Shown here: piece after piece, positions 27,996 to 46,431 of the stretch
Numbering within the stretch: position 1 is the stretch's first letter
How the letters are laid out: every line of letters begins with the position of its first letter
DNA from: an uncultured Alphaproteobacteria bacterium
GTDB taxonomy: Bacteria > Pseudomonadota > Alphaproteobacteria > HIMB59
DNA length: 46,431 bases
Assembly (NCBI GenBank): GCA_902591315.1
Contig: CACJAI010000008.1
Span: 1-46,431, forward strand
Reading direction: 5' to 3'
Made by a program: the position numbers and the translations under genes
Notes under the pieces: generated by a model
Databases searched by the model: none
Told to the model about the DNA's origin: nothing
Seen by the model: only the letters and a program-made list of their open reading frames with translations

Positions 27996-28065
27996 TTGGT
28001 AATAGTATTTAACTTTTATATAGAAAAAAACTATTAAAAATATATGTTTCTTGGTAACAGGATTT

Positions 28066-28788
28066 ATGGAAAATATTAGCGTTTTAGATGGTTTGAAGAT
28101 TTCAGTTTTTCTGGATGGGGCTAATCTCCAAGACATAGCAGAGTACAGTGAATATAGTCAGATAAAAGGTTTTACTTCCAATCCAACTCTTATGGCTAAA
28201 GCAGGGATAAGTGATTATTCTACTTTTATAATTGAATGTTTAAAGGTTTTAAATGGTAAACCAATATCTTTTGAAGTTGTCTCAGATGATATAGATGAAA
28301 TGTACGAACAAGCTGTAAGAATCTCAAGCTTCGCTAAAAATATTTATGTTAAAATACCGATTACTAACTCTAAAGGTCATGATACAAGTAAAATAATTCA
28401 AAAATTAACTGATAATAATATCAAATTAAATATCACTGCTATTACTCATTTATCTCAAATAGATCTAATTTCAAAAAATGTTTTACCAAAAAATGAAATA
28501 ATTTTATCTATATTCTCAGGCAGGATAGCTGATACTGGTATAAATCCAGAATTGATATATTCATCTTTAAATAAATTGAATTTGGATCAAAATTTTAAAA
28601 CATTATGGGCCAGTCCAAGAGAAATTTACAATTTATATCAGGCAAATGAATGTAATGTTGATATTATTACTATTACTAAAGATTTGTTAGTAAAAATTAA
28701 ATTACACAATAAAGATCTTTTAGAATATAGCAAAGAAACTGTACAAATGTTTTACGAAGATGGCTTAAAAAATAAATTATCCATATAA
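28066..28788 (+). CDS. Transaldolase family protein
   Basis: 240 residues from ATG 28066 (MENISVLDGLKISVFLDGAN); a TTG at 28051 would add five residues. The fold signature is clear: KGFTSNPTLMAKAGI, the Schiff-base lysine in YVKIPITNSKG (near residue 95), INITAIT-like strand LNITAITHL, and LWASPREIYN. The size fits the small fructose-6-phosphate aldolase/TalC type. It would shuttle three-carbon units between sugar phosphates, which can yield sedoheptulose 7-phosphate. It is the first gene of the plus-strand sugar operon, divergent from argF with 70 bp between. Confidence 0.88.
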   Translation: MENISVLDGLKISVFLDGANLQDIAEYSEYSQIKGFTSNPTLMAKAGISDYSTFIIECLKVLNGKPISFEVVSDDIDEMYEQAVRISSFAKNIYVKIPITNSKGHDTSKIIQKLTDNNIKLNITAITHLSQIDLISKNVLPKNEIILSIFSGRIADTGINPELIYSSLNKLNLDQNFKTLWASPREIYNLYQANECNVDIITITKDLLVKIKLHNKDLLEYSKETVQMFYEDGLKNKLSI

Positions 28789-28804
28789 ATTAGGAGTAAA
28801 AAAA

Positions 28805-29806
28805 ATGAAAAAAATATTGATTACAGGTGGTGCTGGATACGTAGGATCATTGTTAAGTAAAAAACTTGTAGACCAGGGCAATAAAGTTGTTATTTATGAC
28901 ACTTGTTATTACGGTCAAAATCATATCAAAGAAAATGATGACCTTAAATTAATAAAAGCTGACATAAGAGATAAAAATACTTTTAGTTCTGCCATTGAAG
29001 GAATAGATATTGTCATACACTTAGCTTGTATTTCTAATGACCCAAGCTTTGCTTTAAATGAAGAATTAAGTAAATCAATAAATTATGATTGTTTTGAAGA
29101 TTTAGTTTCAATTTCAAAAAAAAATGGGGTGTCTAGATTTGTATATGCATCAAGTAGCTCGGTATATGGATTTTCCGAGGATGAAAATGTTACTGAGGAT
29201 CACCCTCTTGTTCCTCTTACTTTGTATAATAAATTTAAAGGATTATGTGAACCGATTTTATCAAGATATTTGGATGAGAAGTTTGTTGGAACAATTATAA
29301 GACCAGCAACTTTATGTGGCTATGCCCCAAGATGCAGGCTAGATTTGTCAGTAAATATTCTGACCAATCATGCGGTTAATTCAAAAAAAATTTTAGTTTT
29401 AGGTGGTGGCGAACAAAAAAGACCAAATTTGCATGTCGAAGATATGTGCAGAGCTTATGAAAATATAATTCAAGCAGACTCTGATAAGATTAATAATGAA
29501 GTATTTAATGTAAGTTATGAAAATAAAAAAATAATTGAATTGGCTGATTTGGTGAAAAAAAATGTTGAAAATTTTTATAATATTAGGGACATTGAAATAG
29601 AGGTTAATACTGAAACAAATGATAAAAGATCATACCATGTCAATTCAGAAAAAATAACCCGAGTTCTGGGTTTTAGACCAAAATTTTCTATCGATGATGC
29701 TGTAATTTCTCTTTGTCAAGCTTTCAAAAATAAATTGTTAGTTAACACAATGGATAGTATTGAATACTCTAATGTAGAAATTCTAAAGAAAAATGAAATC
29801 ATCTAA
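28805..29806 (+). CDS. NAD-dependent epimerase/dehydratase (extended SDR) 1
   Basis: 333 residues. NAD-binding motif ITGGAGYVGSLL (6-17), the SSSSVYGFSED serine segment, catalytic Tyr141 and Lys145 (YNKFK), and a sugar-binding C-terminal part with RPATLCGYAPRCRLD and GGGEQKRPNLHVEDMCRAY. It likely epimerises, dehydrates or reduces a nucleotide sugar. The exact reaction is not readable. A ribosome binding site AGGAG (28791-28796) precedes the ATG. It overlaps the next epimerase by 14 bases. Confidence 0.88.
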   Translation: MKKILITGGAGYVGSLLSKKLVDQGNKVVIYDTCYYGQNHIKENDDLKLIKADIRDKNTFSSAIEGIDIVIHLACISNDPSFALNEELSKSINYDCFEDLVSISKKNGVSRFVYASSSSVYGFSEDENVTEDHPLVPLTLYNKFKGLCEPILSRYLDEKFVGTIIRPATLCGYAPRCRLDLSVNILTNHAVNSKKILVLGGGEQKRPNLHVEDMCRAYENIIQADSDKINNEVFNVSYENKKIIELADLVKKNVENFYNIRDIEIEVNTETNDKRSYHVNSEKITRVLGFRPKFSIDDAVISLCQAFKNKLLVNTMDSIEYSNVEILKKNEII

Positions 29807-30812
29807 TAAGAAATCAACTGTTCTTATAACAGGTGGTGCAGGATTTATAGGAAGCCATACTACAGATCTTTTTCTTAGTAAAGGTTTCAAGGTAAAAGTA
29901 ATAGATAATCTATCTGGTGGGAATTTACATAATATAAAACACTTATCAAATAATAGAAATTTTAAATTTCTCAAAGCAGACTTAACTAAATTTGATAAAA
30001 AATTATCAAATTTTTTAAGTAATGTAGAATATGTTATACATTTTGCAGGTATTGGAGACATTGTTCCATCTATAAAATACCCAGAAAAATATTTTGAAAA
30101 TAATGTACAAGGCACTGTTAATTTATTGTCCAAACTTAAAATCGATAAGATTAAGAAGTTTGTTTATGCGGCTTCCTCTTCTTGCTATGGAATAGCTAAA
30201 ACTCCTACAACAGAAAATCATATTATAAAACCTTTATATCCATATGCTTCATCAAAATATCTAGCAGAAGAAATATGTCTACACTGGCATAAAGTTTACA
30301 ACCTTAATTTTAATTCAATTAGAATTTTCAACGCATATGGCACTAGATCAAGAACGTCTGGTGCATATGGTGCTGTATTTGGTGTTTTTTTAAAACAAAT
30401 TATTGAGAATAAACCTCTTACTGTTGTAGGAAATGGAAAACAAAAAAGAGATTTTTTATATGTGACTGATGTAGCAAACGCTTTTTACAAAGCAGCAGTT
30501 ACTAATTTAAATGGAAAAATATGGAACTTGGGAAGTGGGAAGCCTAAATCAATAAATTATTTAATTAAATTATTGAATAAAGAAAAAGATGTCACCTATA
30601 TTCCTGAAAGACCTGGGGAACCTAGAGTAACTCATGCCAATATTAACAAAATAGCATCTGATTTAAAGTGGAGTCCAAAAGTTTCTTTTGAAACAGGTGT
30701 TAATAATATACTAGAAAATATAGATTATTGGAGGAATGCTCCTCTTTGGAATAAAAAAAATATATCTAAGGAAACTGAGTTATGGTTTAAATTTATGAAA
30801 AAATATTCATGA
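29793..30812 (+). CDS. NAD-dependent epimerase (UDP-sugar 4-epimerase-like, extended SDR) 2
   Basis: 339 residues. Motifs: VLITGGAGFIGSHTTDLFL (10-28), AASSSCYGIAK, catalytic YASSK (Tyr151, Lys155) and FNAYGTRSRTSGAYGAVFGVFL, then VVGNGKQKRDFLYVTDVANAF. The pattern is that of UDP-glucose/UDP-GlcNAc 4-epimerases and GDP-mannose dehydratase relatives. It overlaps the upstream epimerase by 14 bases and the downstream fusion gene by four (ATGA), so all three are translationally linked. Confidence 0.9.
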   Translation: MKSSNKKSTVLITGGAGFIGSHTTDLFLSKGFKVKVIDNLSGGNLHNIKHLSNNRNFKFLKADLTKFDKKLSNFLSNVEYVIHFAGIGDIVPSIKYPEKYFENNVQGTVNLLSKLKIDKIKKFVYAASSSCYGIAKTPTTENHIIKPLYPYASSKYLAEEICLHWHKVYNLNFNSIRIFNAYGTRSRTSGAYGAVFGVFLKQIIENKPLTVVGNGKQKRDFLYVTDVANAFYKAAVTNLNGKIWNLGSGKPKSINYLIKLLNKEKDVTYIPERPGEPRVTHANINKIASDLKWSPKVSFETGVNNILENIDYWRNAPLWNKKNISKETELWFKFMKKYS

Positions 30813-32353
30813 AAAAAAATTATTTAGATAAAATTGTTACTCTTTCACAACTTACAAAAAAAGTTGGTAAATTTCCAAGAAAGGACAAGATTGCTATGTG
30901 TCATGGTGTTTTTGATTTAGTGCATCCAGGGCACATAAGGCATTTAGTATTTGCAAAATCAAAAACAAATAAGTTAATTGTTAGTATAACTTCAGATTTT
31001 CATATTAAAAAATCATCTCATAGACCATATGTACCTCAACAACTTCGTGCAGAAAATCTAGCTGCTCTCGAATTTGTAGATTATGTATTAATTGATACTA
31101 AAGAGAAACCTCTTCAAAATATCTTAAAAATTAAACCTGATCTTTTTGTTAAAGGATATGAGTATATCAGTGGACAAGTTAACCCAAATACCCAAGAAGA
31201 AATAAATTTAATAAATAGTTATGGTGGGGAATTCTTATATACCCCTGGAGATTATGTACTTTCCTCCTCAAAAATAATTGAAAATGAAAAACCAGATTTG
31301 TCTTTAGTCAAACTAAAAAGTTTATTAGATGGTGAAAATATCAAATTTGATAAGATATATAAATCTCTTGCAAACTTTAAAAATATTAAAGTACTAGTAG
31401 TTGGAGATACTATCATTGACTCCTATGTGAAAACCTCTCTTATAGGTAGTAATGCCAAAACTCCAACATTTTCAGTTAAATTTTTAGATGAAACTAATTA
31501 TTTAGGTGGAGCTGGTGTTGTAGCTATGCATATGAAAGCAGCTGGAGCAAATGTTTCTTTTTGTTCAACTATAGGTGATGATAGATTAGGAAAATTTGTA
31601 AAAATACAGTTAAAAAAAAATAAAATAAATGATTTAACTCTTAGGTCTAATAAACCCACAACAGAAAAAAAATATTTTATCGCAGATAATTATCGATTGC
31701 TTAAAGTTGATACTGTTGATAACAGTCCAGAGTCTAACTTACTACAAGGTGAAATAACTAAAATTATAAAAAATTTTAAAAATGGTATTGTTATTTTTAG
31801 TGATTTTAGGCATGGTATTTTCAATAAAGAAAGTATACCTAATTATATTAAAGCTCTTAATAAGAATGTGCTTAAAGTTGCTGATAGTCAGGTTGCGAGC
31901 AGATGGGGTAATATTCTTGATTTTAGTGGCTTCGATTTAATTACTCCAAATGAAAAAGAAGCTAGGTTTTCAATGGCTGATCAGGACTCATCAGTTAGGC
32001 CTTTAGCATCTGCTTTATATGAAAAAGCAAAATGTAAATATTTAATATTAAAATTAGGTTCAAGAGGTATTATTACTCTAAGAAGAAAAATTAAACCGAA
32101 TGACTACAGATCTTTTTTTGTTATCGATGCTTTAGAAAATAATGCTATTGATCCTGTTGGATGTGGAGATGGCTTATTAGCATATTCCTCATTGGGACTT
32201 TACAGCTCTAAAGATCCTCTAGTTGCATCAATGTTAGGTTCAGTAAGTTCTGCTTTAGTCAGTAAAACTGATGGTAATAATCCTGTAAGTTATAAGAAAG
32301 TAATCGAAGAACTGAAATTGATTGAAGATAAGCTAAATTTAATCAGTAACTAA
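30809..32353 (+). CDS. Nucleotidyltransferase-PfkB kinase fusion (HldE-like, reversed domain order)
   Basis: 514 residues. The N-terminal 1-170 is a cytidylyltransferase-fold domain with CHGVFDLVHPGHIRHL (HxGH at 39-42) and the SSSKII end motif, as in the adenylyltransferase half of HldE. Residues from about 190 are a PfkB/ribokinase domain with VVGDTIIDSYV, NYLGGAGVVA, a TIGDD segment and the catalytic DPVGCGDG loop near 447-455. In E. coli HldE the kinase comes first and the nucleotidyltransferase second, so the order here is reversed. It probably phosphorylates a heptose phosphate or similar sugar and forms an NDP-sugar. GmhA-like and transaldolase genes in the cluster support a C7 substrate. 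Confidence 0.85.
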   Translation: MKKNYLDKIVTLSQLTKKVGKFPRKDKIAMCHGVFDLVHPGHIRHLVFAKSKTNKLIVSITSDFHIKKSSHRPYVPQQLRAENLAALEFVDYVLIDTKEKPLQNILKIKPDLFVKGYEYISGQVNPNTQEEINLINSYGGEFLYTPGDYVLSSSKIIENEKPDLSLVKLKSLLDGENIKFDKIYKSLANFKNIKVLVVGDTIIDSYVKTSLIGSNAKTPTFSVKFLDETNYLGGAGVVAMHMKAAGANVSFCSTIGDDRLGKFVKIQLKKNKINDLTLRSNKPTTEKKYFIADNYRLLKVDTVDNSPESNLLQGEITKIIKNFKNGIVIFSDFRHGIFNKESIPNYIKALNKNVLKVADSQVASRWGNILDFSGFDLITPNEKEARFSMADQDSSVRPLASALYEKAKCKYLILKLGSRGIITLRRKIKPNDYRSFFVIDALENNAIDPVGCGDGLLAYSSLGLYSSKDPLVASMLGSVSSALVSKTDGNNPVSYKKVIEELKLIEDKLNLISN

Positions 32354-32358
32354 TTCAG

Positions 32359-33255
32359 ATGAAATCGCTTATTATTGGTTTAGGGACACAAGGATATAAA
32401 AGAAAGCTTAATATCTCTAATCAAAAAATAGAAACGGTAGATCTATTAAATAAAGAGGCTGATTTCAAACAATATAAAAATTTGAATCCAATGGATTACT
32501 CACATGTATATATTTGTTTACCTGAGGAAGAAAAATTTGAAGCTATTAATTTTTTTTTAAAGAAAAATAAAAAAATTCTTGTTGAGAAACCCTTAATACT
32601 AAGCACCAAAAACTATAAATATTTGATTGAAAAAGCCAAAAGATATAATGCATGTATTTACACAGCTTACAATCATAGGTTTGAGCCACATATTATGAAT
32701 CTAAAAAAAGAATTGAGATTATCTAATCAAAAAATTTATAATTTGGATATGATGTACGGCAATGGAACAATTGGCCTATGGAAAAATTCATGGAGATCAA
32801 AAGATAAAAATTCTATTATCTTCGATCTGGGCGTACATCTACTTGATACTTTTCTTTTTCTTTTTGAATTTCTCCCCAAAAAATATGACTATTTTTTTGG
32901 AAAAAAAAATGAACTTAATTGCTATGATTATGTAAAGTTTGGCTCAAATGAAAGATTTTCATCTCATTTCACAATTTCAACTATTAACTGGAGAAATCAC
33001 TTTGAAACTAATTTAATTACAAAAACAAATAGTTATCACATTTACTCTTTATGCAAATGGGGGCCTAGTACCTTTATAAAAAGAAAAAGAAAATTACCAT
33101 CTGGTAAACCTCTTGAAAAATCTAAAGTAATTGAAAAAAATGATCCTACATGGAAACTTGAGGAAAAATATTTTAGAAAATTAAATCCTGGATATACAAA
33201 CTTGAATAATGATCAGTTAATAAGCAAAGTATTAAAAAATATTTTAATTAAATGA
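32359..33255 (+). CDS. Gfo/Idh/MocA family oxidoreductase
   Basis: 298 residues. The N-terminus has the Rossmann start SLIIGLGTQGYKR, then VYICLPEEEKF, the conserved KKILVEKPLILS (EKP motif) and YTAYNHRFEPHI, all typical of the family. The C-terminal part has IIFDLGVHLLDTFLFLF, containing the usual (D/N)xGxHxxD motif. Enzymes of this type oxidise or reduce hydroxyls of sugars or nucleotide sugars with NAD(P). It begins six bases after the fusion gene and overlaps the next gene by ATGA. Confidence 0.85.
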   Translation: MKSLIIGLGTQGYKRKLNISNQKIETVDLLNKEADFKQYKNLNPMDYSHVYICLPEEEKFEAINFFLKKNKKILVEKPLILSTKNYKYLIEKAKRYNACIYTAYNHRFEPHIMNLKKELRLSNQKIYNLDMMYGNGTIGLWKNSWRSKDKNSIIFDLGVHLLDTFLFLFEFLPKKYDYFFGKKNELNCYDYVKFGSNERFSSHFTISTINWRNHFETNLITKTNSYHIYSLCKWGPSTFIKRKRKLPSGKPLEKSKVIEKNDPTWKLEEKYFRKLNPGYTNLNNDQLISKVLKNILIK

Positions 33256-34460
33256 TTGTATTTGTTGGGCTTTCACATTTATCTTTGTGCTATTCAGCTT
33301 CTGCTTTAATTAAAGGAAAAAAAATAGTAATTTTAGATTTTGAAGAGATAATTGATAAATACAAAAATAAAGAATTTAATATTTATGAAAATGGATTAGA
33401 GAGAATCCAAAAGAAATTTTCCAAAAACTTATCATACTCATCAAATTTTGAACTTTTAAAAAAGGCAGAGATGATCTTTCTTGCAAAAGATACAGAAACT
33501 AATAATAAAAATGAGTATAAATTAAAATATGTAGATAAATTAGTAAGAAAGATAGAAAAATATAAATCAAGAGTGCCATTAGTAATTATGAACCAAGTTC
33601 CAGTTGGTTATACAAGAAAAGTTAAGTGGTATGATAGCTATAAATACCATTTTATTGAAACCTTGATTTTTGGAAATGCTATCGAAAGGGCCGTGTATCC
33701 TGAAAGAATTATTCTAGGTAAACCTAATTTAAATACCAAAATAAACCAAAAGCTATTGAATTTTCTTAAAAAATATAACTGTCCAATTTTTGAAATGTTA
33801 TATGAGGAGTCAGAATTAAATAAAATGTTTATTAATTTAATTTTAGCATCACAAGTATCTCTAACAAACTATATGAATGAAATTTGTATAAAAAACAATT
33901 TAAACTGGGATACAATTAAAAGCTCTCTTCAAAAAGATAAAAGAATAGGAAACAAATCATACTTATCACCAGGGCTTGGAATTTCAGGTGGAAATATAGA
34001 AAGAGATTTAGAAAATCTATCTAAGATTACAATTGATAAAAAAATTAACTTTCCAAAACTTTTTTTAAAATTTAGTGATTTTAAAAAAGATAAACTTCTT
34101 AACTGTCTTAATTATAATTTTGTTTTAAAAAAGCATACAAATGTATGTATTTTGGGGCTACGTTATAAGAATGACTCATTATCTATTAAAAATTCGCCCT
34201 CATTAAGGTACAAAAAATATCTCGAAAAAAAATGTAATTTATTAATTAATGATAGAAAGTTAGAAAGCATGTCAAAAAAATTGAAAATTAATATGCATGA
34301 TTTAAGTTATGTTCAAAAAAATTCTGATATTGTAATTTTAATGAATGATGATTATACAAAAAATGAGATTAAAAATTTTAAGAAATGTAAATTAATAATT
34401 GATCCATTCAAAATTTTATATAATTTGAAATTGAAGAATACTAAGATAGTTCATATATGA
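33252..34460 (+). CDS. UDP-glucose/GDP-mannose dehydrogenase homologue lacking the catalytic Cys
   Basis: 402 residues. The family is evident from IVFVGLSHLSLCYSASAL at the N-terminus, MNQVPVGYTRKV (113-124), RAVYPERIILG and the helix ELNKMFINLILASQVSLTNYMNE with its lysine (Lys191). The catalytic GxGGxCxPKD loop reads GLGISGGNIERD (241-252), so the nucleophilic cysteine is Asn248 by alignment and PK is ER. A four-electron oxidation by the normal thiohemiacetal route should be impossible. It may have a changed reaction, such as single oxidation, or a structural role. ATGA overlaps link it to both neighbours. Confidence 0.82.
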   Translation: MIVFVGLSHLSLCYSASALIKGKKIVILDFEEIIDKYKNKEFNIYENGLERIQKKFSKNLSYSSNFELLKKAEMIFLAKDTETNNKNEYKLKYVDKLVRKIEKYKSRVPLVIMNQVPVGYTRKVKWYDSYKYHFIETLIFGNAIERAVYPERIILGKPNLNTKINQKLLNFLKKYNCPIFEMLYEESELNKMFINLILASQVSLTNYMNEICIKNNLNWDTIKSSLQKDKRIGNKSYLSPGLGISGGNIERDLENLSKITIDKKINFPKLFLKFSDFKKDKLLNCLNYNFVLKKHTNVCILGLRYKNDSLSIKNSPSLRYKKYLEKKCNLLINDRKLESMSKKLKINMHDLSYVQKNSDIVILMNDDYTKNEIKNFKKCKLIIDPFKILYNLKLKNTKIVHI

Positions 34461-37903: not shown

Positions 37904-37912
37904 AATAAATTT

Positions 37913-38551: not shown

Positions 38552-38556
38552 TTATT

Positions 38557-40167
38557 TTAAATTCTATTTTTGACAAAAGTATCATTATTGTTAAGGACTT
38601 GAAATAATTTTAATTTTCCATGGTGAAATAGCAGTTCTGAGTATGGATAATGATGTAAAGGGGCAATATTTAGTAAAACCAATGCACTTAATATTCTAAC
38701 TTTCGTTACGTCAAAACCATTATCACAAATGAAATTTTCAAATATTTTTAAATTTCTTATTAAATGTGGTCGAATATCGAAGTAATACTCAACCTCTTTC
38801 TCATTAATTTTTACATCATATTTATTTGCCCTTATGACTTTTCCTGTAATCTCTAATGCATGATGGAGTTTTGCAAAATCATAATATATATCTCCGTATA
38901 TTTTAGAAGCTCCAAAATTTTCTCTCCAATCAAGTAAAATAAATTTTTTTTTAAAGTTATAAATAATATTCTCTGGCTGAAGATCACCATGAAATAAAAT
39001 TGGAAAAGAGTCAAAAATATTATCCCATTTAATTTTTTGTAAAATATCTGAAATTTTTGGTACTTTTATTTTGTTAATAATTTGAGATCTATCTTGAAAA
39101 GAGGCTCTTTTAAAATACATTGATAGTCTTGAGTAAGTTTTTTCTTTATAGAAATTCTTACAGGCATTATCGACTATTTTTTTTTGACTTTTATTACTCT
39201 TTAACCAAAAATTTTTATTCACAAAATTTAAAAAACTTAGAAAAACTTTTTTGTCTTTAATTTCGGATAAAAGATCCCCTTTTTCGTAATGATAAGCAAG
39301 AAAGTTGCCATCACTTTTAATCATTTTAGGTATATAATTTTTTAAAAATTTAGATTTTTTAATTCTTTCTATAGCTTTTGATTTATCTTGAAAATATTTT
39401 ATAACGATATTCTTTTGAAGATAAAAATACTCATCAGGTTTTGGTAAAACCTTATTATTTCCGTAAAAATTAAGAGCTTTTACATAGTTAAATTCATTAC
39501 CTGTATCAAACCACTTAAATTCAATACATTTTAAATTTTTATTTTTAAGACCCTCCAAACCATTAGAGACTTGGTATTCGCCACTATTTAATTCTTTATT
39601 TTTCTTTAATGAGTTCCAAAAAATTTTAGTATTATAAACACCAGCAAGTCCAATAAAACAATTGCAATCATAATTTTTATATCCGTTCCAATATAGAAAA
39701 TTGCTACTTTTTTTGTCAAAGAAACGGGTGACTTTATCTGATTTATCTTTTTCTATAACCAAGTATGGTTCAGGATCTGAAATTGTAGATATTCCAATCC
39801 AATTTTTATTAGGTGGAGGAATCTTGCCTTCAACTAGAGTATCACAAGCAATAAATATGAATGGGCTTTTTAAATATTTTTCACATTGAAGCATTGTAAA
39901 ACCTGGACCACTTCCTTTTCCTTGATAATTTTTTACCTCAACTATTTTTATTTTTCTGTTTTTATGTGCAATATTTAAAAAATTTACAATTTTTTCCTTC
40001 TGATATCCAACAGCTATGACAAATTCAACATTTTTTGGAAATTTATCAATTATTTTTGAAATAATACTACCTTGATTAATTGGTAATAGAGCTTTGTTAA
40101 TGTTTGAAATTGATGAAATCCTAGAACCAAGACCGGCAGCTGTAATACATACTTTGTAATTACGCAT
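38557..40167 (-). CDS. Sugar nucleotidyltransferase fused to an APH-type kinase
   Basis: 536 residues. N-terminal 1-230 is an NTP_transferase domain: CITAAGLGSRIS, SNINKALLPI (GxGxR...K...LPI signature) and the metal aspartate in FIACDTLVEG. The C-terminal half is an aminoglycoside-phosphotransferase/choline kinase fold with FHGDLQPENIIYN (near residue 393) and LDWRENFG. This pairing mirrors the separate AmgK kinase and MurU uridylyltransferase that activate free N-acetylmuramate, so one protein may convert a free sugar to sugar-1-phosphate and then to NDP-sugar. The true substrate is unknown. It is 17 bases after the cupin gene. Confidence 0.85.
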   Translation of the reverse strand: MRNYKVCITAAGLGSRISSISNINKALLPINQGSIISKIIDKFPKNVEFVIAVGYQKEKIVNFLNIAHKNRKIKIVEVKNYQGKGSGPGFTMLQCEKYLKSPFIFIACDTLVEGKIPPPNKNWIGISTISDPEPYLVIEKDKSDKVTRFFDKKSSNFLYWNGYKNYDCNCFIGLAGVYNTKIFWNSLKKNKELNSGEYQVSNGLEGLKNKNLKCIEFKWFDTGNEFNYVKALNFYGNNKVLPKPDEYFYLQKNIVIKYFQDKSKAIERIKKSKFLKNYIPKMIKSDGNFLAYHYEKGDLLSEIKDKKVFLSFLNFVNKNFWLKSNKSQKKIVDNACKNFYKEKTYSRLSMYFKRASFQDRSQIINKIKVPKISDILQKIKWDNIFDSFPILFHGDLQPENIIYNFKKKFILLDWRENFGASKIYGDIYYDFAKLHHALEITGKVIRANKYDVKINEKEVEYYFDIRPHLIRNLKIFENFICDNGFDVTKVRILSALVLLNIAPLHHYPYSELLFHHGKLKLFQVLNNNDTFVKNRI

Positions 40168-40184
40168 AATATTATTATATCTTA

Positions 40185-40649
40185 TTATCTATGTTCGGAG
40201 TCTATTTTTCCATGACCCCTGTTAGAATCGTCTTGTATTCTAAATACATCATCAAGTTCTAAAGTTGAGGCCTCTATCATCAATAAGTCTGTGAGAGCTA
40301 TAACTCTATGAATGTAACCAGGCTTAATATGAAATACTACGCCTTTTGATAACTCAATAGACTCTAAAGAACTTACAATTAAACTGAGATCTTCTTTGCT
40401 ATATCCGTCACTTTTAAACTTTTTTATATCTATTGGATCTTTTGATAGCATCAGTAATCCAGTTCCAGACTGGATGTAATTTGTTTCTTCTTTAGCTTCA
40501 TGAAATTGTATACTTGATTTGTGCGGGGCTTTTATAAGTATCTCTTTAAGCGCATACTTACTATCATTGTAATATGAAGCAAGCCATATTTCATGTCCCC
40601 AAGGTTTATCTATTTTTTGAACGTTACTTATATTTTCAACTTTAGACAT
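40185..40649 (-). CDS. Cupin protein (type II phosphomannose isomerase-like)
   Basis: 154 residues. KPWGHEIWLASYYND near the N-terminus and the metal-binding cupin motif in SSIQFHEAKEETNYIQSGTG, with a second motif in VVFHIKPGYIHRVIAL, resemble the mannose-6-phosphate isomerase domain of GDP-mannose pyrophosphorylase fusions. Such stand-alone cupins in polysaccharide clusters may isomerise or epimerise sugars. Specificity cannot be read. It is on the minus strand, 27 bases after the asparagine synthase-like gene. Confidence 0.82.
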   Translation of the reverse strand: MSKVENISNVQKIDKPWGHEIWLASYYNDSKYALKEILIKAPHKSSIQFHEAKEETNYIQSGTGLLMLSKDPIDIKKFKSDGYSKEDLSLIVSSLESIELSKGVVFHIKPGYIHRVIALTDLLMIEASTLELDDVFRIQDDSNRGHGKIDSEHR

Positions 40650-40676
40650 TATTACTGTTTAAACTATTTTTATTAC

Positions 40677-42551
40677 TTATTCAAATTTAATATTGTATTG
40701 ATTCATCCAACTACTTAAACAGGTAATAATCCAAACTTTATAACTTTCGTTTGAAGACATTTTTTCGAAACGATTATAGAGATCAAATAAATATTGTTCT
40801 TTGAAAATTCCTTTAGGTAATGAAAAATATATTTCTTTAAAAAATTTTTTATTTTCGTTAGAGGTAAGCCAATCTCTAACAGGTACACTAAATCCCTTTT
40901 TAGGAAAATTTATAATTTCTGTTGGCAGCTTAGACTCAAAAGTTTTTCTAAGTAATAATTTTTTTCCAATTTTGGAAAATCTTATTTTATCTGGTATTTT
41001 TATTAAATTATTCTTTAGTTCTAAATCAAGAAATGGAACCCTAATTTCAATGGAATGAGCCATACCAGCTTTATCCCAAAGGGCCAAAGCATGGTCTATT
41101 AACCAGGTATTAAGATCAATCTCTGATAATAAACGATCGAAATTAGAATAATCTTTTTCAAATTTATCATAATAATAAATTTGATTTTTAAAAATTTTTT
41201 CATAATCACCATTAAAAAATTCTATTTCATTGAAGTCTTTCCTACTTAAGATATTTCTCCAAAAAAAATGAAAATATTTATCACTGAGACTAGAACCTTC
41301 TAAAAATCTGTAAATTTTTTCATAATTACTCAGATGAATACCTTGATCTTTAAACTTATAAAAACTTTTAATTAAATTAAATACACTCTTATTAAATGGC
41401 AGTCTTTTTCTTATGTGAGATGCTAAATAAGTGGGATATCCAGAAAAAAGCTCATCACCCCCAGCACCAGCTAACAAAACTTTATGATTTGTCCCTGCTA
41501 ATTTACAAACCTGATACTTTGATGCAAATACTGGTATAAAATCAAAATTATCAAATGTTGAAATCATTTTATGAAAATCTTCTCTTATGTGCGAGTTTTC
41601 AATTTTTATTGATTGATTCTTGATATTCCAAATTTTACATAAATTCTCTACTAATATATTCTCGCTAAAATCTTTATTAGGATAATAAGCAGTATAAGAA
41701 GTTAAATTTTCAGATTTTCCTAAATCTCTAACTATTGAAAGTAAACCCATGGAGTCCATTCCTGAAGATAATAAAAGACCTATGGGAACATCTGAGATTA
41801 ACTGTCTATTCACAGCATCCTTTATGATTGAATATAAATACTCCTCAAAATTCTTAAAATTAGCATAATCAAAATTGCCATTTTCGCTAGGTTCATAGAT
41901 AATTTTATTTTTTGTAATAGTCAGATCATTACTGATCAAAATAATTTCAGAGGGATTGACTTGAAAACAATTTTTTAAAGCACTTGATGGATGGTGGATG
42001 TAACCTGAAGTAAAAAGCTGTAGAAGACCATCTTTATTAACTTTTTTTGAAATATTATTTTGAATAAAAGTTTTAATCTCAGATGAAAAAAAAATTTTGT
42101 CTTCTTTTTTAAGATAATATAAAGGTTTTATTCCTGATGGATCTCTAGTTAGAATTAAATTCTTTTTTAAATCATCCCAAATAGCAATAGCAAAAATACC
42201 GTTAAGCTTATTTAAAAAATTTAAACCATATTTTCTATATCCGTGAAGTATTACCTCTCCATCAGAATTTGTTTTAAAGGAAATATCTGCTAAATATCTT
42301 TTTTTTAAATACTGAAAATTGTATATTTCACCATTAAATATAACGGTTACTTTTTTATCATCACTAATAAAAGGTTGATCACCATTTTCCAAATCAATTA
42401 TTGATAGGCGGTTCATACCTATCAATAAATTTTCATTTTTATAAACTCCCCTACTATCTGGCCCTCTGTGATTTATAGAATTTAATAAATCATTAATTAG
42501 TTCGTGATTGATTAATTTTGATGAAGATAAATAACCAACTATCCCACACAT
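40677..42551 (-). CDS. Asparagine synthase-like glutamine amidotransferase
   Basis: 624 residues. N-terminal glutaminase with nucleophile Cys2 (MCGIVGYLSS), NHRGPDSRGVY and VIFNGEIYNF; C-terminal synthetase domain with the PPi loop LLSSGMDSMGL (near 260; usual SGGxDS) and IRVPFLDLEL. Genuine AsnB makes asparagine; many paralogues in polysaccharide clusters amidate uronic acids. Its place between a GMC oxidoreductase and a sugar cupin favours the second. Expected substrate would be a carboxylated sugar made nearby; this is inference. Confidence 0.88.
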   Translation of the reverse strand: MCGIVGYLSSSKLINHELINDLLNSINHRGPDSRGVYKNENLLIGMNRLSIIDLENGDQPFISDDKKVTVIFNGEIYNFQYLKKRYLADISFKTNSDGEVILHGYRKYGLNFLNKLNGIFAIAIWDDLKKNLILTRDPSGIKPLYYLKKEDKIFFSSEIKTFIQNNISKKVNKDGLLQLFTSGYIHHPSSALKNCFQVNPSEIILISNDLTITKNKIIYEPSENGNFDYANFKNFEEYLYSIIKDAVNRQLISDVPIGLLLSSGMDSMGLLSIVRDLGKSENLTSYTAYYPNKDFSENILVENLCKIWNIKNQSIKIENSHIREDFHKMISTFDNFDFIPVFASKYQVCKLAGTNHKVLLAGAGGDELFSGYPTYLASHIRKRLPFNKSVFNLIKSFYKFKDQGIHLSNYEKIYRFLEGSSLSDKYFHFFWRNILSRKDFNEIEFFNGDYEKIFKNQIYYYDKFEKDYSNFDRLLSEIDLNTWLIDHALALWDKAGMAHSIEIRVPFLDLELKNNLIKIPDKIRFSKIGKKLLLRKTFESKLPTEIINFPKKGFSVPVRDWLTSNENKKFFKEIYFSLPKGIFKEQYLFDLYNRFEKMSSNESYKVWIITCLSSWMNQYNIKFE

Positions 42552-42555
42552 TGAA

Positions 42556-44127
42556 TTAATCTTTCATTCTTTTATCTAAAATTTCAGATAGTCTAAAAGA
42601 TAAAGCTAGTATTGTTAAAGTAGGATTTACAGATCCAGATGTAGGAAAAACAGAACTTCCATTAATATAAAGATTATTATAACCAAAAACCTTATGATCA
42701 GAATTAACTACTCCATCTTTATCGCTATAAGACATTCTAGTTGTACCCATATGATGACCTACCCCGAAAATAATATCACTCTGATGTTTTTCAATTCTAT
42801 CAACAATATTATTTTTTAAAAGATAACTTGAGAGATACCTCTCATTGACATCAATAGTTTTTTTATCTCTACTGTTTAGAGTCCATTTTAATATTGGGAT
42901 ATTTTTATTAAATATATTTTTATTTTGAGATAACTCTACTCTATTAGACACTGTTGGTTCTTGTTCTATTCTTATAATGCTGTAATTATTAAAATTATTA
43001 TCTAATTTAAATTTTATTAAATTAAATAAATCGAGTATTGCGAAAGGAGTTTCATTTATTAATTTTTTGATGTAACTCAAAAATTTTATTGGGAATACCT
43101 TTGAAACAAAAGAATACCTGGCAATTACTGCTGAGGATACCTCCAATAAATTATGATTTGAAAATACAGTAATAGCATTATTGATAGACTCTTTTTCTTG
43201 TATCTCATAATTCAATACTAACCCAGCAAGCCTAGAAACTTCAGGTTTATTTGCAATGTTCATTTTTTCAAAATTTTTAAAATATTTTTTGGCACTTACA
43301 TGATTTTTTGAAATAGTAATATGTGGATGTTCCATAAAGTATTTGCCCACAAGAGAGTTTCTGTTACCTATTCCATTTGATTCCTGAGTATTACTATTTA
43401 ATAAAAGTGAGGCATTTTCAATGCCACCGCAACATAATACAAAAATCTTAGACTTAATTTGAATTTGTTCGTTATTAAAATTCGAACAATTGATATTTTG
43501 AATAGTTTTTAAATCATTATCTAAAATTAATTCATTACAATTTAAATTATAAAAAATTTTAACATTTTTATATTTTTCAAATTTATTTAGAATTTTTTTT
43601 CTAAAATTTAGAGGCTCTTTATAAAATTGCCAATAATGTACTAAAAAATTATCTATCTGATTATGATTGTTGTTTTTTATGAAATTCAGTAATGTATCAA
43701 AGTATTCGTATTCTGCTAACTTTAGATAGTCATTTGCTTTTAAAAAATATTTGTTGAATTCATCGTAAGTTATTGGCCAACCACTATTCTCAATCCAATG
43801 TCTTTTTTCAAAATCAAATTTATTTAATGGACTACTCCATCCAGCCCAAACATTTGAGGTACCTCCTATTTGTCTCAATCTTCCATAATTAGTTGAGTAA
43901 TTTTCATGAGGATAATTGCCAAGAAAAGGATTTTGACCTTCATTCAATTTTATATGTTCATTTTTGATTTTAAAATCACCAGACTCAATTACACAAATAC
44001 TTTTATTTTTATCTTTAGATAATTGCTCTAATAAAATAGATCCTGATGGACCTGTGCCAATAATGCAAATATCAAAGAACTCATCAAAAATTGAACCTAG
44101 ACTTTTATTATTTGAATCTATAAACAT
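42556..44127 (-). CDS. GMC family oxidoreductase
   Basis: 523 residues. FAD-binding DICIIGTGPSGSILLEQL (about 20-37), RLRQIGGTSNVWAGWSSPL and WPITYDEFNKYF in the first part, and the GMC C-terminal block GVGHHMGTTRMSY (near 455) with SSVFPTSGSVNPTLTILALSFR. The His and Asn expected at the active site are present. Family members oxidise alcohols, including sugars, with FAD. It is first in the minus-strand operon, four bases before AsnB, and only 24 bp separate its start from the divergent transketolase gene. Confidence 0.9.
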   Translation of the reverse strand: MFIDSNNKSLGSIFDEFFDICIIGTGPSGSILLEQLSKDKNKSICVIESGDFKIKNEHIKLNEGQNPFLGNYPHENYSTNYGRLRQIGGTSNVWAGWSSPLNKFDFEKRHWIENSGWPITYDEFNKYFLKANDYLKLAEYEYFDTLLNFIKNNNHNQIDNFLVHYWQFYKEPLNFRKKILNKFEKYKNVKIFYNLNCNELILDNDLKTIQNINCSNFNNEQIQIKSKIFVLCCGGIENASLLLNSNTQESNGIGNRNSLVGKYFMEHPHITISKNHVSAKKYFKNFEKMNIANKPEVSRLAGLVLNYEIQEKESINNAITVFSNHNLLEVSSAVIARYSFVSKVFPIKFLSYIKKLINETPFAILDLFNLIKFKLDNNFNNYSIIRIEQEPTVSNRVELSQNKNIFNKNIPILKWTLNSRDKKTIDVNERYLSSYLLKNNIVDRIEKHQSDIIFGVGHHMGTTRMSYSDKDGVVNSDHKVFGYNNLYINGSSVFPTSGSVNPTLTILALSFRLSEILDKRMKD

Positions 44128-44151
44128 GTAACTAACTTAGCAAATAAGGTT

Positions 44152-44925
44152 ATGAGTATTAATCAATTTAATGTAGATTGCAAAAAAATTAGAAAAAATA
44201 CCTTAGAATGTGTTTTTAAAGCTGGCTCAGGTCATATTGGGCCTTCTTTCTCGATTATTGAATTAACTCATTTTATCCATAAATATGAAAGAGATTTCAA
44301 TTTTATTTTATCAAAAGGCCATGCTGCCCCAGGTTTATATGCTTGCCTTTATCAAAATCAACTTTTATCTAAAAAAGAGTTTTTCAACTTAAGAAAAATA
44401 GGGTCCAAGACACAAGGTCATCCTGATAGACTTTTATTTAAAAAAATTGATTGCAGTACCGGAGCACTAGGACAAGGTCTTTCAGTTGCTATAGGATATG
44501 CAATTGGAGATAAACACTTAAATAAAAGCAAGAAAACATTTTGCATTCTCGGCGATGGTGAAATGCAGGAGGGTCAAATATGGGAGTCTCTTTTATTTTT
44601 GGGAAATAACTACTTAAGAAATTTAATAACAATAATTGATTATAATAAATATCAAAATGAGATGTCTGTTAAAGATACTTTGGATTTGGGAAATTTAAAG
44701 AAGAAACTATCTAGTTTTAATTTAGAAGTCATTGAGATAAACGGGCATGACTTTAAAGATATAAAAAAAGCTTTTAAAATAAAAAAGTTAAATAAAAATT
44801 TAGTTGTCATTGCTCATACGATTAAAGGTAAAGGAATAAGTTTTATGGAAAACGACAATCACTGGCACTCTGCAAAATTAAACAAAGATAACTACTTAAA
44901 AGCCATAGAGGAACTAAATATATGA
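44152..44925 (+). CDS. Transketolase, N-terminal (TPP-binding) subunit
   Basis: 257 residues. GSGHIGPSFSIIELTHFI, LSKGHAAPGLYA, STGALGQGLSVAIGYAIGD and the TPP motif GDGEMQEGQIWES (near 133) with IIDYNKYQ are clear. It is the first half of a split transketolase, whose C-terminal half follows with a four-base overlap. Split forms are common in bacterial polysaccharide clusters. It transfers two-carbon ketol units between sugar phosphates, or onto a nucleotide sugar ketone. Confidence 0.93.
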   Translation: MSINQFNVDCKKIRKNTLECVFKAGSGHIGPSFSIIELTHFIHKYERDFNFILSKGHAAPGLYACLYQNQLLSKKEFFNLRKIGSKTQGHPDRLLFKKIDCSTGALGQGLSVAIGYAIGDKHLNKSKKTFCILGDGEMQEGQIWESLLFLGNNYLRNLITIIDYNKYQNEMSVKDTLDLGNLKKKLSSFNLEVIEINGHDFKDIKKAFKIKKLNKNLVVIAHTIKGKGISFMENDNHWHSAKLNKDNYLKAIEELNI

Positions 44926-45848
44926 AAAACTTAGCTATCAGGGATGTTTTTGGCTTAACTCTTAGAGATCTAGGTAAAAAAAATAAAAAAATTTTTGCAG
45001 TTTCTCCTGATTTAAAAGCTGCAACAAAACTAAGCTATTTCTTTAAAGAATTTCCCGAGCGTTCTATTGAAACAGGAATAGCAGAGGCTAATGCTATCGG
45101 AATATCAGCAGGTCTAGCTCTTGCTGGATTAAAACCAGTCGTATCAAGTTTTGGTGCCTTTCTAACAGGTAAAAATGTCGAAATTAGAACATCTATCTCA
45201 TTCAATAATGCAAATGTTATAATAGCAGGAACACATGGAGGTTTAATAGGTCCAGATGGACCTAGTCAAGCTGGGCTTCAAGATATAGCAGTTATGCGGT
45301 CTATTCCTAATATGTCTGTTTATCAACCAGCCACTGCTATTGAAACTAGAAAAATATTAGAATACTCAATAAAAGCAAATAAACCTATTTATATAAGAAT
45401 TTCAAGACAGGCTAATAAAGAATTTTTTACCTCCAGTTATAAATTTACTGAGGGAAATCCAGTGACATTAAATAAAAACTTTCAAGATGGTATTGTAATT
45501 TCTTCAGGCAATACACTTCAAAATTGTTATGAAGCTGTAGAAAAATTTAAAAAATTAGGAAAAAAAATAGGTCTAATTAATATTCCATCTATAAAACCCT
45601 TAAATAAATCAAAAATTAAAAATTTATTAAGAAAAACTAATAAAGTATTTACTATTGAAGACCATAATATTTATGGTGGATTAGGCTCAGTAATTCTTGA
45701 GTCACTATCTGATTTAGATAAAAAACCAAAAATTTTTATGCATGGATTAAAGGATGTTTTTATACAAAGCGATGAAGTTGAAAATCTATATAAATATTAT
45801 GGCTTAGATTCCAAAGGAATTTTTAAATTTATAAATAAAAATATATAA
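44922..45848 (+). CDS. Transketolase, C-terminal subunit
   Basis: 308 residues. SPDLKAATKL, IETGIAEANAIGISAGLALAG with the catalytic glutamate (IAEAN), HGGLIGPDGPSQAG, AVMRSIPNMSVYQPA and a C-terminal IEDHNIYGGLGSVI segment. It supplies the pyrimidine-binding and C-terminal domains missing from the upstream protein. Coupled to it by ATGA overlap, and one base precedes the next gene. Confidence 0.93.
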   Translation: MKNLAIRDVFGLTLRDLGKKNKKIFAVSPDLKAATKLSYFFKEFPERSIETGIAEANAIGISAGLALAGLKPVVSSFGAFLTGKNVEIRTSISFNNANVIIAGTHGGLIGPDGPSQAGLQDIAVMRSIPNMSVYQPATAIETRKILEYSIKANKPIYIRISRQANKEFFTSSYKFTEGNPVTLNKNFQDGIVISSGNTLQNCYEAVEKFKKLGKKIGLINIPSIKPLNKSKIKNLLRKTNKVFTIEDHNIYGGLGSVILESLSDLDKKPKIFMHGLKDVFIQSDEVENLYKYYGLDSKGIFKFINKNI

Positions 45849-45849
45849 A

Positions 45850-46338
45850 TTGAGAAATATTAAAAATTTTATTCTAGATGTTGATGGTGTCATGACATCA
45901 GGAAAATTTTTATACTCTACAAAAGGAAAAATTTATAAAGAATTCGGTGCTCATGATAGTGATGGTCTGAAAATTTTATCTAAATACATAAATATTGAGT
46001 TTATAACAGCTGACAAGAGAGGACTGGGTATATCAAAGTCTAGGATATCTAAAGATATGGGTTTTAAATTGACTTTAGTCCCTGAAGAAAATAGATATGA
46101 ATTTTTTAAAGCCAAATTTGGTTTTAAAAATACCATATACATGGCAGATGGAATTTATGATGCTAAAATCTTAAAAGAATGTCATTTTAGTATAACACCT
46201 AATAATGCCAGAAAAGAGGCTAAAAAATATTCTGATTATATAACGCCTTCTAACTCCGCAGAAGGTGCTGTGCTAGATGCGTGTATTAAAATTATGAAAA
46301 GGTTTTTTAAATATGAAACTTATAAGTACCCTTTCTAG
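45850..46338 (+). CDS. KdsC-like HAD phosphatase
   Basis: 162 residues from TTG 45850 (MRNIKNFILDVDGVMTSGKF); the only later Met would remove the DxD motif (Asp10, Asp12). The pattern LDVDGVxTxGKxxYxxxGKxxKxFxxxDxDGLKIL is that of the KDO-8-phosphate phosphatase family (type C0 HAD without cap, tetrameric). Near the C-terminus, YMADGIYDAKIL and ITPNNARKEAKK agree. It could dephosphorylate KDO-8-P or another higher sugar acid, or a heptose bisphosphate. It follows transketolase with a one-base gap. Confidence 0.87.
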   Translation: MRNIKNFILDVDGVMTSGKFLYSTKGKIYKEFGAHDSDGLKILSKYINIEFITADKRGLGISKSRISKDMGFKLTLVPEENRYEFFKAKFGFKNTIYMADGIYDAKILKECHFSITPNNARKEAKKYSDYITPSNSAEGAVLDACIKIMKRFFKYETYKYPF

Positions 46339-46431
46339 TTACAAATATTATTTAATCTTAATAATTTTTGCATGTTTATTTTATTTATTTAAAAAAGATT
46401 TTTGGGGAGGTGTTGATACATTTGATTTATT
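46313..46431 (+). CDS. Membrane protein, N-terminal fragment
   Basis: An ATG at 46313 opens a frame that runs off the window end. It begins MKLISTLSSYKYYLILIIFA and continues CLFYLFKKDFWGGVDTFDL, so it has one transmembrane helix near the N-terminus and no match I recognise. The start lies 26 bases inside the KdsC-like gene in another frame. Only about 39 residues are visible. It could be a glycosyltransferase anchor or an export protein of the sugar cluster, but nothing shows this. Confidence 0.5.
   Translation, partial: MKLISTLSSYKYYLILIIFACLFYLFKKDFWGGVDTFDL

Follow-up and report, generated by a model that had tools for sequence, protein, structure and literature searches.

Does an island crowded with genes for sugar-nucleotide synthesis encode one pathway or more than one? 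The question is raised by a stretch of 46,431 nucleotides from an uncultured HIMB59 alphaproteobacterium (hereafter the window), where 18 proteins are encoded with tight spacing in one 18-kb stretch (28051-46338). An initial annotation had read these genes as a single pathway to one oxidised, amidated and methylated heptose or octulosonate-like sugar. Here, we propose, at a probability of roughly 0.6, that the region comprises two independent, separately inherited sugar-nucleotide cassettes lying side by side: cassette A (28051-36132) for an NDP-heptose derivative and cassette B (36121-46338) for another NDP-sugar. The window spans an entire contig of a genome that is 65% complete, and so the island may be truncated at position 46431.

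The genes named in the initial annotation are all present, and our family searches agree with their assignments. They lie, as described there, in three tight operons, one on the plus strand (28051-36132), one on the minus strand (36121-44127) and one again on the plus strand (44152-46338), with internal gaps of -14 to 27 bases, and the greater AT-richness of the island was confirmed (26.75% GC at 28051-46431 vs 30.86% at 1-27300).

Cassette A and its relatives

All genes of cassette A lie on the plus strand. The first encodes a transaldolase/FSA-type protein (TAL; 28051..28788, with a possible start at 28066) that matches PF00923 and TIGR02134 (5e-76; 255 bits, below the cut-off of 282) and carries a KIP lysine motif, which we presume to play its usual role. 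TAL is followed by SDR1 (28805..29806; PF01370), of the NDP-sugar epimerase/dehydratase family, SDR2 (29793..30812; PF01370 at 1e-56, YASSK motif), a GalE/TviC-like NDP-sugar epimerase, and an HldE-like fusion of a nucleotidyltransferase and a PfkB kinase (30809..32353). Next come the Gfo/Idh/MocA dehydrogenase GFO (32359..33255; PF01408 at 4e-7, EKP motif), a UGD-family protein (33252..34460; TIGR03026, 141/190 bits), SDR3 (34457..35320; PF01370 at 4e-18) and, at the end of the operon, a class I SAM methyltransferase (35320..36132; PF13489/PF08241). In the fusion, the transferase (24-159) precedes the kinase (187-502), an inversion of what we take to be the order of NF008454/E. coli-type HldE, kinase first and transferase second; its scores fall under three NCBIfam cut-offs (NF008454, 151/521 bits; TIGR02198, 136/345; TIGR02199, 92.8/181.5). 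The UGD-family protein is indeed Cys-less, as had been noted: the catalytic Cys, presumably to be expected in a GG.C..KD-type motif, is replaced by Asn both in the window (GGNIERD) and in 5/5 relatives. SDR3 lacks YxxxK, the site of which reads HG[LI]MH in four relatives. The missing canonical catalytic residues of SDR3 and UGD make any role of these two proteins in cassette A tentative, a point counted against our reading.

The order TAL-SDR1-SDR2-HldE-GFO-UGD is kept in all five relatives (L033-L037), whose HldE-like proteins are 47-51% identical to that of the window; SDR3 comes next in four, and the fifth contig ends in UGD. At the place of the methyltransferase, L036 and L037 carry a 215-aa gene with no BLAST match to it. 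The relatives additionally have a GmhA-like SIS isomerase at the cassette (5/5), a split transketolase (3/5) and a GmhB-like HAD (two, with a HAD fragment in a third). The window's cassette A is devoid of these accompanying GmhA and GmhB genes, and a search of its own genome returned only the SIS of cassette B and a 317-aa SIS-domain protein; this counts against our reading, with the reservation that the genome is 65% complete.

Cassette A is probably a self-supplied NDP-heptose pathway. Transketolase and transaldolase would supply sedoheptulose 7-phosphate, a GmhA-type isomerase would form heptose 7-phosphate, the HldE-like fusion and a phosphatase would activate it, and SDR1, SDR2, GFO, UGD and SDR3 may rework the ring. 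The ADP-heptose pathway runs through GmhA, HldE and GmhB. Cassette A shares with it the HldE-like fusion, to which the relatives add the GmhA-like SIS and some the GmhB-like HAD, but departs from it in the inverted domain order, in scores below the curated cut-offs and in having, where that pathway has HldD alone, five additional genes of dehydrogenase/epimerase families.

The genes of cassette B

The core of cassette B is NTAPH (38557..40167, minus strand), a fusion of a nucleotidyltransferase with an APH-type kinase. Both Pfam matches of the window protein are just under cut-off. The APH model PF01636 is matched by 39/43 family members at E 0.01; the window member is not among them, which counts against our reading, and its kinase half is recognised only through its relatives; H393, G394, D395, N400 and D413, which include the HGD motif, are invariant in 43/43. 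In the predicted structure, the N-terminal domain adopts the GalU/RmlA/LicC fold (Z 23-27), a GlmU/RmlA-type transferase fold, and its closest structures include LicC, a CTP:phosphocholine cytidylyltransferase, and HddC (5xhw). Because this domain took up the whole of the Foldseek and VIA-align lists, structural comparison gave no placement for the kinase domain. The family thus combines an APH kinase bearing HGD with a GlmU/RmlA-fold transferase, the AmgK/MurU-type domains, and by analogy NTAPH is predicted to act as an anomeric-carbon kinase on a free sugar.

At lower coordinates on the same strand lie a 332-aa membrane protein, hydrophobic by eye (36121..37119; matched by neither Pfam nor NCBIfam at E 0.001, weak relatives in 2/149 related genomes), an AroE/HI0607-like dehydrogenase (37112..37903) and a divergent GmhA-like SIS isomerase (37913..38551). 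The AroE-like protein scores under the cut-offs of three AroE models (PRK12550, 169/306 bits; others, 138/252 and 126/200), has 1npy as its best PDB match, and retains K68 and D104, invariant in 10/10. The SIS protein is likewise under cut-off (TIGR00441, 77.2/209.45 bits) and weakly matches KdsD (9.5e-5); relative to the catalytic Glu65/His180 pair of GmhA, it has Asp61 at the Glu position and retains the His as His200, both residues being invariant in 12/12. A cyclitol pathway through a dehydroquinate-synthase-like enzyme, at which the AroE-like protein might hint, was rejected; none of the 19 window and ten neighbour proteins scanned matched such an enzyme.

Beyond NTAPH, the minus strand encodes a cupin (40185..40649; PF01050 at 6e-4, below cut-off), an AsnB-like glutamine amidotransferase (40677..42551; TIGR01536 at 2e-113, above cut-off, with an N-terminal Cys in MCG) and a GMC oxidoreductase (42556..44127; PF05199, PF00732). 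The PDB held no informative match for the cupin; its metal-site residues Q48, H50, E55 and H114, invariant in 11/11, form a site that we take to resemble that of type-II mannose-phosphate isomerase. The plus-strand operon encodes the N (44152..44925; PF00456 at 1e-30) and C (44922..45848; PF02779) subunits of a split transketolase and a KdsC-like HAD phosphatase (45850..46338; TIGR01670, 57.7/106.95 bits, under cut-off; PDB 2p9j, 4um5) that ends 93 bases before the contig does. The two transketolase subunits bear the sequence signatures of thiamine binding and of transketolase: they match PF00456, PF02779 and PF02780 above cut-off and carry the motifs SKGHA, GDGE (in the N subunit) and GIAEAN. 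The nearest PDB entry is 6yaj, a split transketolase of solved structure (C subunit, E 2e-55). The window's transketolase resembles the Carboxydothermus hydrogenoformans enzyme (6yaj, 6yak) in being encoded by two genes and differs in lying in a sugar-nucleotide gene cluster. A pyruvate-dehydrogenase-like pair making a branched-chain sugar was rejected, the C subunit being nearest to split transketolase and the transketolase motifs being kept. The self-supplied sugar-nucleotide capacity claimed for the island therefore stands, through TAL, HldE-like protein and SIS in the relatives of cassette A and through split transketolase and SIS in cassette B.

Distribution of NTAPH and its alternative front ends

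NTAPH has homologues in several bacterial phyla, in DPANN and ammonia-oxidising archaea and on many phage contigs; a large share of the loci come from binned metagenome or single-cell assemblies, so host names rest on record titles. At 65 genome loci we found 66 NTAPH genes, which within six genes have a KbaZ-like protein alone (38), a transketolase alone (11), both (2) or neither (15); both front ends meet at only one locus, L123, with a tandem NTAPH pair. This alternation is significant by Fisher's test (p 3e-4), with the reservation that the rows are related. A cupin lies near 33/38 KbaZ-type and 10/11 transketolase-type genes, and a SIS protein near 1/38 vs 10/11. Most of the cassette B core genes are kept at 11 loci from several phyla, which, like the conserved order of cassette A in five relatives, goes beyond chance. 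The cassette closest to that of the window, L122 (58% NTAPH identity), counts against the pattern in having no SIS within its 21.6 kb. HAD lies near 33/38 KbaZ-type and 6/11 transketolase-type genes, and AroE near 2/38 and 6/11; that each is near only 6/11 of the latter was counted against our reading of cassette B.

The viral loci compared are the 80 best of 128, and there 73/81 NTAPH genes have a KbaZ-like gene nearby. With a neighbourhood of seven genes around NTAPH at 83 loci (these 80 plus L010-L012, with the window's own pseudo-locus excluded), we counted KbaZ-like (76), cupin (68), AroE (20) and HAD (14). Three pairs of loci are apparently duplicate contigs, to judge by matching lengths (L123/L010, L179/L012, L180/L011) and, for L123, also by gene content. 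Retrieval independent of NTAPH gave a consistent picture: of 149 relatives (150 genomes with the window's own), four have a KbaZ-like gene, which in three of them shares its contig with a full-length NTAPH, and no others of the 149 have full-length NTAPH. A class-wide sample of 385 genomes, again including the window's own, yielded NTAPH (E 1e-50) in two others and KbaZ-like (E 1e-20) in two; the one genome with both has them on different contigs. This result counts against our reading. An NTAPH tree was drawn from 85 of the 146 sequences, namely every genome row with at least 400 aa, every sixth viral row and the viral rows with transketolase or no front end. In it, 10/12 transketolase-type members, including the window's, fall in one 97% group with one 'both' and one 'neither' row, and the front-end label needs two changes; the tree was built by a quick method and has two very long branches.

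The KbaZ-like enzyme of these relatives, absent from the window, matches PF08013 in 16/27 members at E 0.001, and its model superposes best on GatZ (2fiq; Z 37.2, 362 residues, rmsd 2.9), indicating a GatZ/KbaZ fold. Most relatives of NTAPH have this KbaZ/GatZ-like protein, a putative aldolase or ketose epimerase, where the window has the transketolase-SIS front end. Further matches of the model are to tagatose 4-epimerase and UxaE, at Z values of up to 27.0, and to class II aldolases, at up to 24.9. It is conceivable, if rather unlikely, that the protein is a ketose 4-epimerase and that NTAPH modules activate rare hexoses, in which case the product of cassette B would not have to be a C7 sugar. 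The transketolase-type module speaks against this, for it pairs a transketolase with a GmhA-like isomerase, and transketolase and GmhA-type isomerase are the usual makers of C7 sugars.

One pathway or two

That all three operons form the one pathway of the initial annotation can be argued from their tight spacing within 18 kb, and from the window's cassette A having no GmhA-type isomerase or transketolase of its own, both of which cassette B could supply. We nevertheless think it improbable, as the cassettes recur separately in the 225 loci compared: none of at least 6 kb joins at least three A genes with at least five B genes (BLAST, E 1e-20, 35% identity; flanks up to 10 kb per side). Full-length NTAPH is moreover missing from four of the five cassette A genomes, and in the fifth (G060) it is KbaZ-type and on another contig. 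The SIS and transketolase of A and B also belong to different subfamilies (24-28% and 30-35% identity, respectively), which argues for parallel pathways. Neighbour conservation, which had been suggested as a check, holds within each cassette but fails for the whole island among the loci compared. Against separate cassettes, 2/4 UGD matches in genome loci lie within two genes of NTAPH.

The single product fared no better. AsnB and GMC occur together at only one of the 65 genome loci, L122, so an oxidised, amidated product is at most tentative. An octulosonate-like product is not indicated: family searches of the window proteins gave no match resembling KDO-8-phosphate synthase or CMP-KDO synthetase, and the KdsC-like HAD scores under its model's cut-off.

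Proposed pathway of cassette B and known systems

On the reading of two separate cassettes, we infer for cassette B a reaction order, substrate, chain length, nucleotide and product as follows. The split transketolase would build a ketose phosphate, which the GmhA-like SIS would convert to an aldose phosphate; HAD would remove the terminal phosphate, NTAPH would phosphorylate the anomeric carbon and then couple the nucleotide, and the cupin and AroE-like reductase may adjust the carbon skeleton. In the window's branch, GMC may oxidise and AsnB may amidate.

AmgK, which we take to be of the APH family, and its partners offer the nearest precedent, the MupP-AmgK-MurU families matching HAD and NTAPH. 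As outlined in PMC5371407, a HAD phosphatase, an anomeric kinase and a GlmU-like nucleotidyltransferase act there in series from a sugar 6-phosphate to an NDP-sugar. There, each activity has its own enzyme and the route serves to recycle peptidoglycan, whereas cassette B has kinase and transferase in one protein, NTAPH, which is accompanied by a cupin and by either a KbaZ-like enzyme or transketolase/SIS. In the GDP-heptose pathway (GmhA-HddA-GmhB-HddC), HddA is a GHMP-type kinase and GmhB presumably the phosphatase. Cassette B parallels this pathway in its isomerase, C1 kinase, phosphatase and nucleotidyltransferase for a heptose phosphate, but has an APH-type kinase, a KdsC-like instead of a GmhB-like HAD, a divergent SIS and its own transketolase. 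PMC10918830 names GmhA, HddA and HddC of this pathway.

Alternatively, the product of cassette B might be a CDP-linked polyol or open-chain sugar, for which the transferase would activate a ketose at its primary phosphate and the AroE-like protein would reduce the ketone, by analogy with CDP-6-glucitol of C. jejuni HS:5, for which a cytidylyltransferase and an SDR reductase act in turn on fructose 6-phosphate (outlined in PMC10918830). The shared transferase and ketose-reductase logic, the match of the AroE-like protein to 5-ketofructose reductase (7cok) and the presence of LicC among the closest transferase structures all fit. We consider this unlikely, since it leaves no role for the kinase domain or the SIS isomerase, and AroE is near NTAPH only at the loci counted above (6/11 and 2/38). 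The C. jejuni route further differs in comprising two enzymes, with no part described for a transketolase, SIS or kinase in the relevant part of PMC10918830. It is very improbable that the island is an ordinary, already characterised O-antigen or capsule locus, even though the order HIMB59 has a variable LPS O-chain island (as summarised in PMC10734472), for family profile searches of its 18 proteins found no glycosyltransferase or export family and the literature matches listed include no description of the gene set.

Novelty and significance

The published literature that we searched contains, among the matches listed, no description of cassette B, and its pathway is apparently undescribed while recurring in very different bacteria, archaea and phages. 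We put at even odds the broader proposal that NTAPH marks an undescribed, widely shared module, with a core of fusion, cupin and KdsC-like phosphatase and two front ends, that builds a rare surface or virion sugar in marine tailed phages, many bacterial phyla and DPANN/ammonia-oxidising archaea, the window representing the less common of the two forms, which is fed by transketolase and here further elaborated by oxidation and amidation. Surface use would have to be supposed, because the family searches gave the island no glycosyltransferase or export protein. Phage-host recognition in the sea depends on surface sugars, and a cassette with its own skeleton enzymes and activating fusion would, if the proposal is true, imply a common rare sugar missed by structural glycobiology. 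The alternation of front ends predicts that each form feeds its NTAPH.

PHROGs returned only unknown families or generic names for ten queries, nine from cassette B and one KbaZ-like, and plasmids gave two weak NTAPH matches. Two separate searches matched NTAPH to five and eight named phage records, all below 60% identity.

Organization of the island

The island at 28051-46338 comprises 18 genes in three operons, with intergenic gaps of -14 to 27 bases; its GC content is 26.8% (30.9% in positions 1-27300). The source genome, of which the window is one entire contig, is 990 kb long and 65% complete. Searches of Pfam and NCBIfam bore out the gene list of the initial annotation, and the genes fall into two sets, here termed cassette A (28051-36132) and cassette B (36121-46338). 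Beside the island, an ornithine carbamoyltransferase gene (27306-28136, reverse strand) is split, its C-terminal part lying in another frame past an early stop; the gene is therefore either a pseudogene or misassembled. A 332-aa membrane protein encoded at 36121-37119 (reverse strand) has several His motifs recognizable by eye and no family match in Pfam or NCBIfam; among 149 related genomes, two encode weakly similar proteins.

Cassette B and its two front ends

The core of cassette B is a fusion of a nucleotidyltransferase with an APH-type kinase (NTAPH; 38557-40167, reverse strand), for which searches recovered 65 loci from a collection of 84,980 species' genomes and, from viral contigs, 128 loci, the best 80 of which were considered. 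Within six genes of the 66 NTAPH genes at the genome loci, 38 have a KbaZ/GatZ-like enzyme alone and 11 a split transketolase alone; both front ends accompany only 2, the tandem pair of a single locus (L123), and neither accompanies 15, several of them near a contig end. The alternation gives a Fisher p of 3e-4 on rows that are related to one another. At the same loci, the cupin is found near 33/38 KbaZ-type and 10/11 transketolase-type NTAPH genes and the KdsC-like phosphatase (HAD) near 33/38 and 6/11, whereas the GmhA-like isomerase (SIS) is near 10/11 transketolase-type vs 1/38 KbaZ-type genes and the AroE-like gene near 6/11 vs 2/38. Since the NTAPH proteins of the transketolase type fall mainly (10 of 12) in one supported tree group, the data suggest that substrates differ somewhat between the two forms.

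By the names in the database records, the 11 transketolase loci belong to three Pelagibacteraceae, Omnitrophica, a Flavobacteriales MAG, bacterium TMED198 and Zambryskibacteria among bacteria, the rest coming from two Pacearchaeota, another archaeon and Nitrosopelagicus. Pelagibacteraceae AG-365-I20 (L122) retains the divergent layout of the window, HAD and the two transketolase subunits (HAD-TKC-TKN) against GMC-AsnB-cupin-NTAPH-AroE, at 39-68% identity, with SIS absent from the locus. On one Pacearchaeota contig (L169), two split-transketolase pairs surround a single NTAPH gene. A 274-aa protein lacking a Pfam match (L010:9901-10725) has homologues within six genes of 13/38 KbaZ-type and 0/11 transketolase-type NTAPH genes.

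Predicted enzymes and a proposed pathway

The predicted NTAPH model (pLDDT 92) has in its N-terminal half a GalU/RmlA/GlmU/LicC fold (Z 23-27), with HddC among the Foldseek matches to the model. An APH kinase family match was obtained for 39 of the 43 aligned members and none for the window protein itself; the HGD motif, N400 and D413 are invariant in all 43. The nearest PDB match of the transketolase C subunit is a solved split transketolase. Distantly related to GmhA, the SIS protein carries Asp where GmhA has its catalytic Glu; this Asp and an HPFV..DK segment are invariant in 12/12 members, and the segment was not seen in three GmhA alignments. A Q-H-E-H metal site in the cupin resembles that of type-II mannose-phosphate isomerases, and the AroE-like protein, nearest HI0607 and with 5-ketofructose reductase also among its relatives, retains a Lys and an Asp whose role we presume. 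For the KbaZ-like model, GatZ is the best structural match (Z 37.2); scores reach Z 27.0 for tagatose 4-epimerase and UxaE and Z 24.9 for class II aldolases. Because all of these folds match, the enzyme could act either as an aldolase or as an epimerase.

Cassette B is best read as a supply-and-activate module for a sugar nucleotide. In heptose pathways the kinase step precedes the phosphatase step. In cassette B, a ketose phosphate would be made and isomerised, then dephosphorylated and phosphorylated at C1, with either the phosphatase or the kinase acting first, before a nucleotide would be added. In the transketolase form the substrate could plausibly be a C7 sugar, and at two loci GMC and AsnB could generate a carboxamide. 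The last three proposed steps follow the logic of MupP-AmgK-MurU, in which a phosphatase, an anomeric kinase and a nucleotidyltransferase act in series (PMC5371407). The finding belongs to sugar-nucleotide biosynthesis, a known kind of pathway, whose parts here are unfamiliar and whose carriers are unusually varied; a search of openly available literature, passages of PMC10918830, PMC10734472 and PMC5371407 included, found no description of a cassette B-type module.

Linkage within cassette B

At the genome loci, the cupin lies within two genes of NTAPH in 49/53 cases and within five in 51/53; corresponding values are 11/13 and 12/13 for SIS, 18/40 and 38/40 for the KbaZ-like gene, and 18/49 and 46/49 for HAD. 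SDR2-type genes, which are common in polysaccharide islands and served as the control at these loci, have no tie to NTAPH (0/16 within two genes, 6/16 within five); contrary to this control, 2/4 UDP-glucose dehydrogenase family (UGD) genes lie within two genes of it.

In a reverse search, the KbaZ-like profile detected the gene in 4 of 149 relatives. In three of these, a full-length NTAPH lies on the contig that holds the KbaZ-like gene; no other relative has a full-length NTAPH. The close SIS subfamily (E < 1e-90; next match 1e-33) occurs only in the window's own genome and in one relative (G083), the two with a transketolase-type NTAPH. Among 385 genomes of the class, two have a KbaZ-like gene (E 1e-20) and two besides our own a full-length NTAPH (E 1e-50); the single genome with both has them on separate contigs, which counts against linkage.

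Cassette A as a probable separate unit

Of the loci retrieved (225 overall), none among those of at least 6 kb carries cassettes A and B jointly. Full-length NTAPH is absent from four of five cassette A genomes, and the fifth (G060) has a KbaZ-type NTAPH on a different contig from cassette A.

A search of 150 genomes, our own included, with the HldE-like fusion, whose domain order is transferase then kinase, gave matches in 55 at E 0.001, many of them weak or partial. Five relatives (L033-L037) have it at full length and 47-51% identity, and all five keep the window's gene order TAL-SDR1-SDR2-HldE-GFO-UGD; SDR3 follows UGD in four, the fifth contig stopping within UGD. A GmhA-like SIS gene adjoins the run in 5/5 relatives, a split transketolase accompanies it in L033, L036 and L037, and a HAD gene, GmhB-like by eye from the start of its sequence, is present in L033 and L036, with an apparent fragment in L037. 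From gene content, there is a good case that cassette A is a self-supplied NDP-heptose cassette.

SIS and HAD are both missing from the cassette A copy in the window. Because the only matches of a SIS profile in the window's own genome (65% complete) were the cassette B SIS and one SIS-domain protein of 317 aa, either both cassettes may draw on cassette B, or the missing genes may lie in the unsequenced third.

In the UGD active-site motif, Asn replaces Cys in the window and in all five relatives, and the window SDR3 lacks YxxxK. SDR3 of four cassette A relatives has HG[LI]MH in place of the expected YxxxK; in the relatives, the two enzymes may be a pair catalysing other than the textbook reaction.

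Carriage by phages

On IMG/VR contigs, KbaZ-like genes lie near 73 of 81 NTAPH genes (best 80 of 128 viral loci). On one contig (L096:10001-21548), an NTAPH and KbaZ-like pair and one small gene precede three baseplate wedge subunit genes (PHROGs), whose families are also found at L092, L095 and L097-L099, all on marine phage contigs, the first two recurring at 9 and 6 loci. From these adjoining families and their recurrence, at least the L096 group is truly phage. Of six neighbour proteins scanned at two other viral loci (L042 and L102), one belongs to phage families of DNA helicases, and none of the others is phage-specific. A 186-kb viral contig (L088) has two split-transketolase pairs flanking one NTAPH gene.

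Enterococcus phage 9183 and cyanophage S-SRM01 carry distant NTAPH homologues, that of the cyanophage adjoining a SIS-domain gene. In phage 9183, the gene preceding the homologue (gp046; L187:5645-5989) is annotated as a phosphoheptose isomerase with a note that says polynucleotide kinase, and the annotated name may be wrong.
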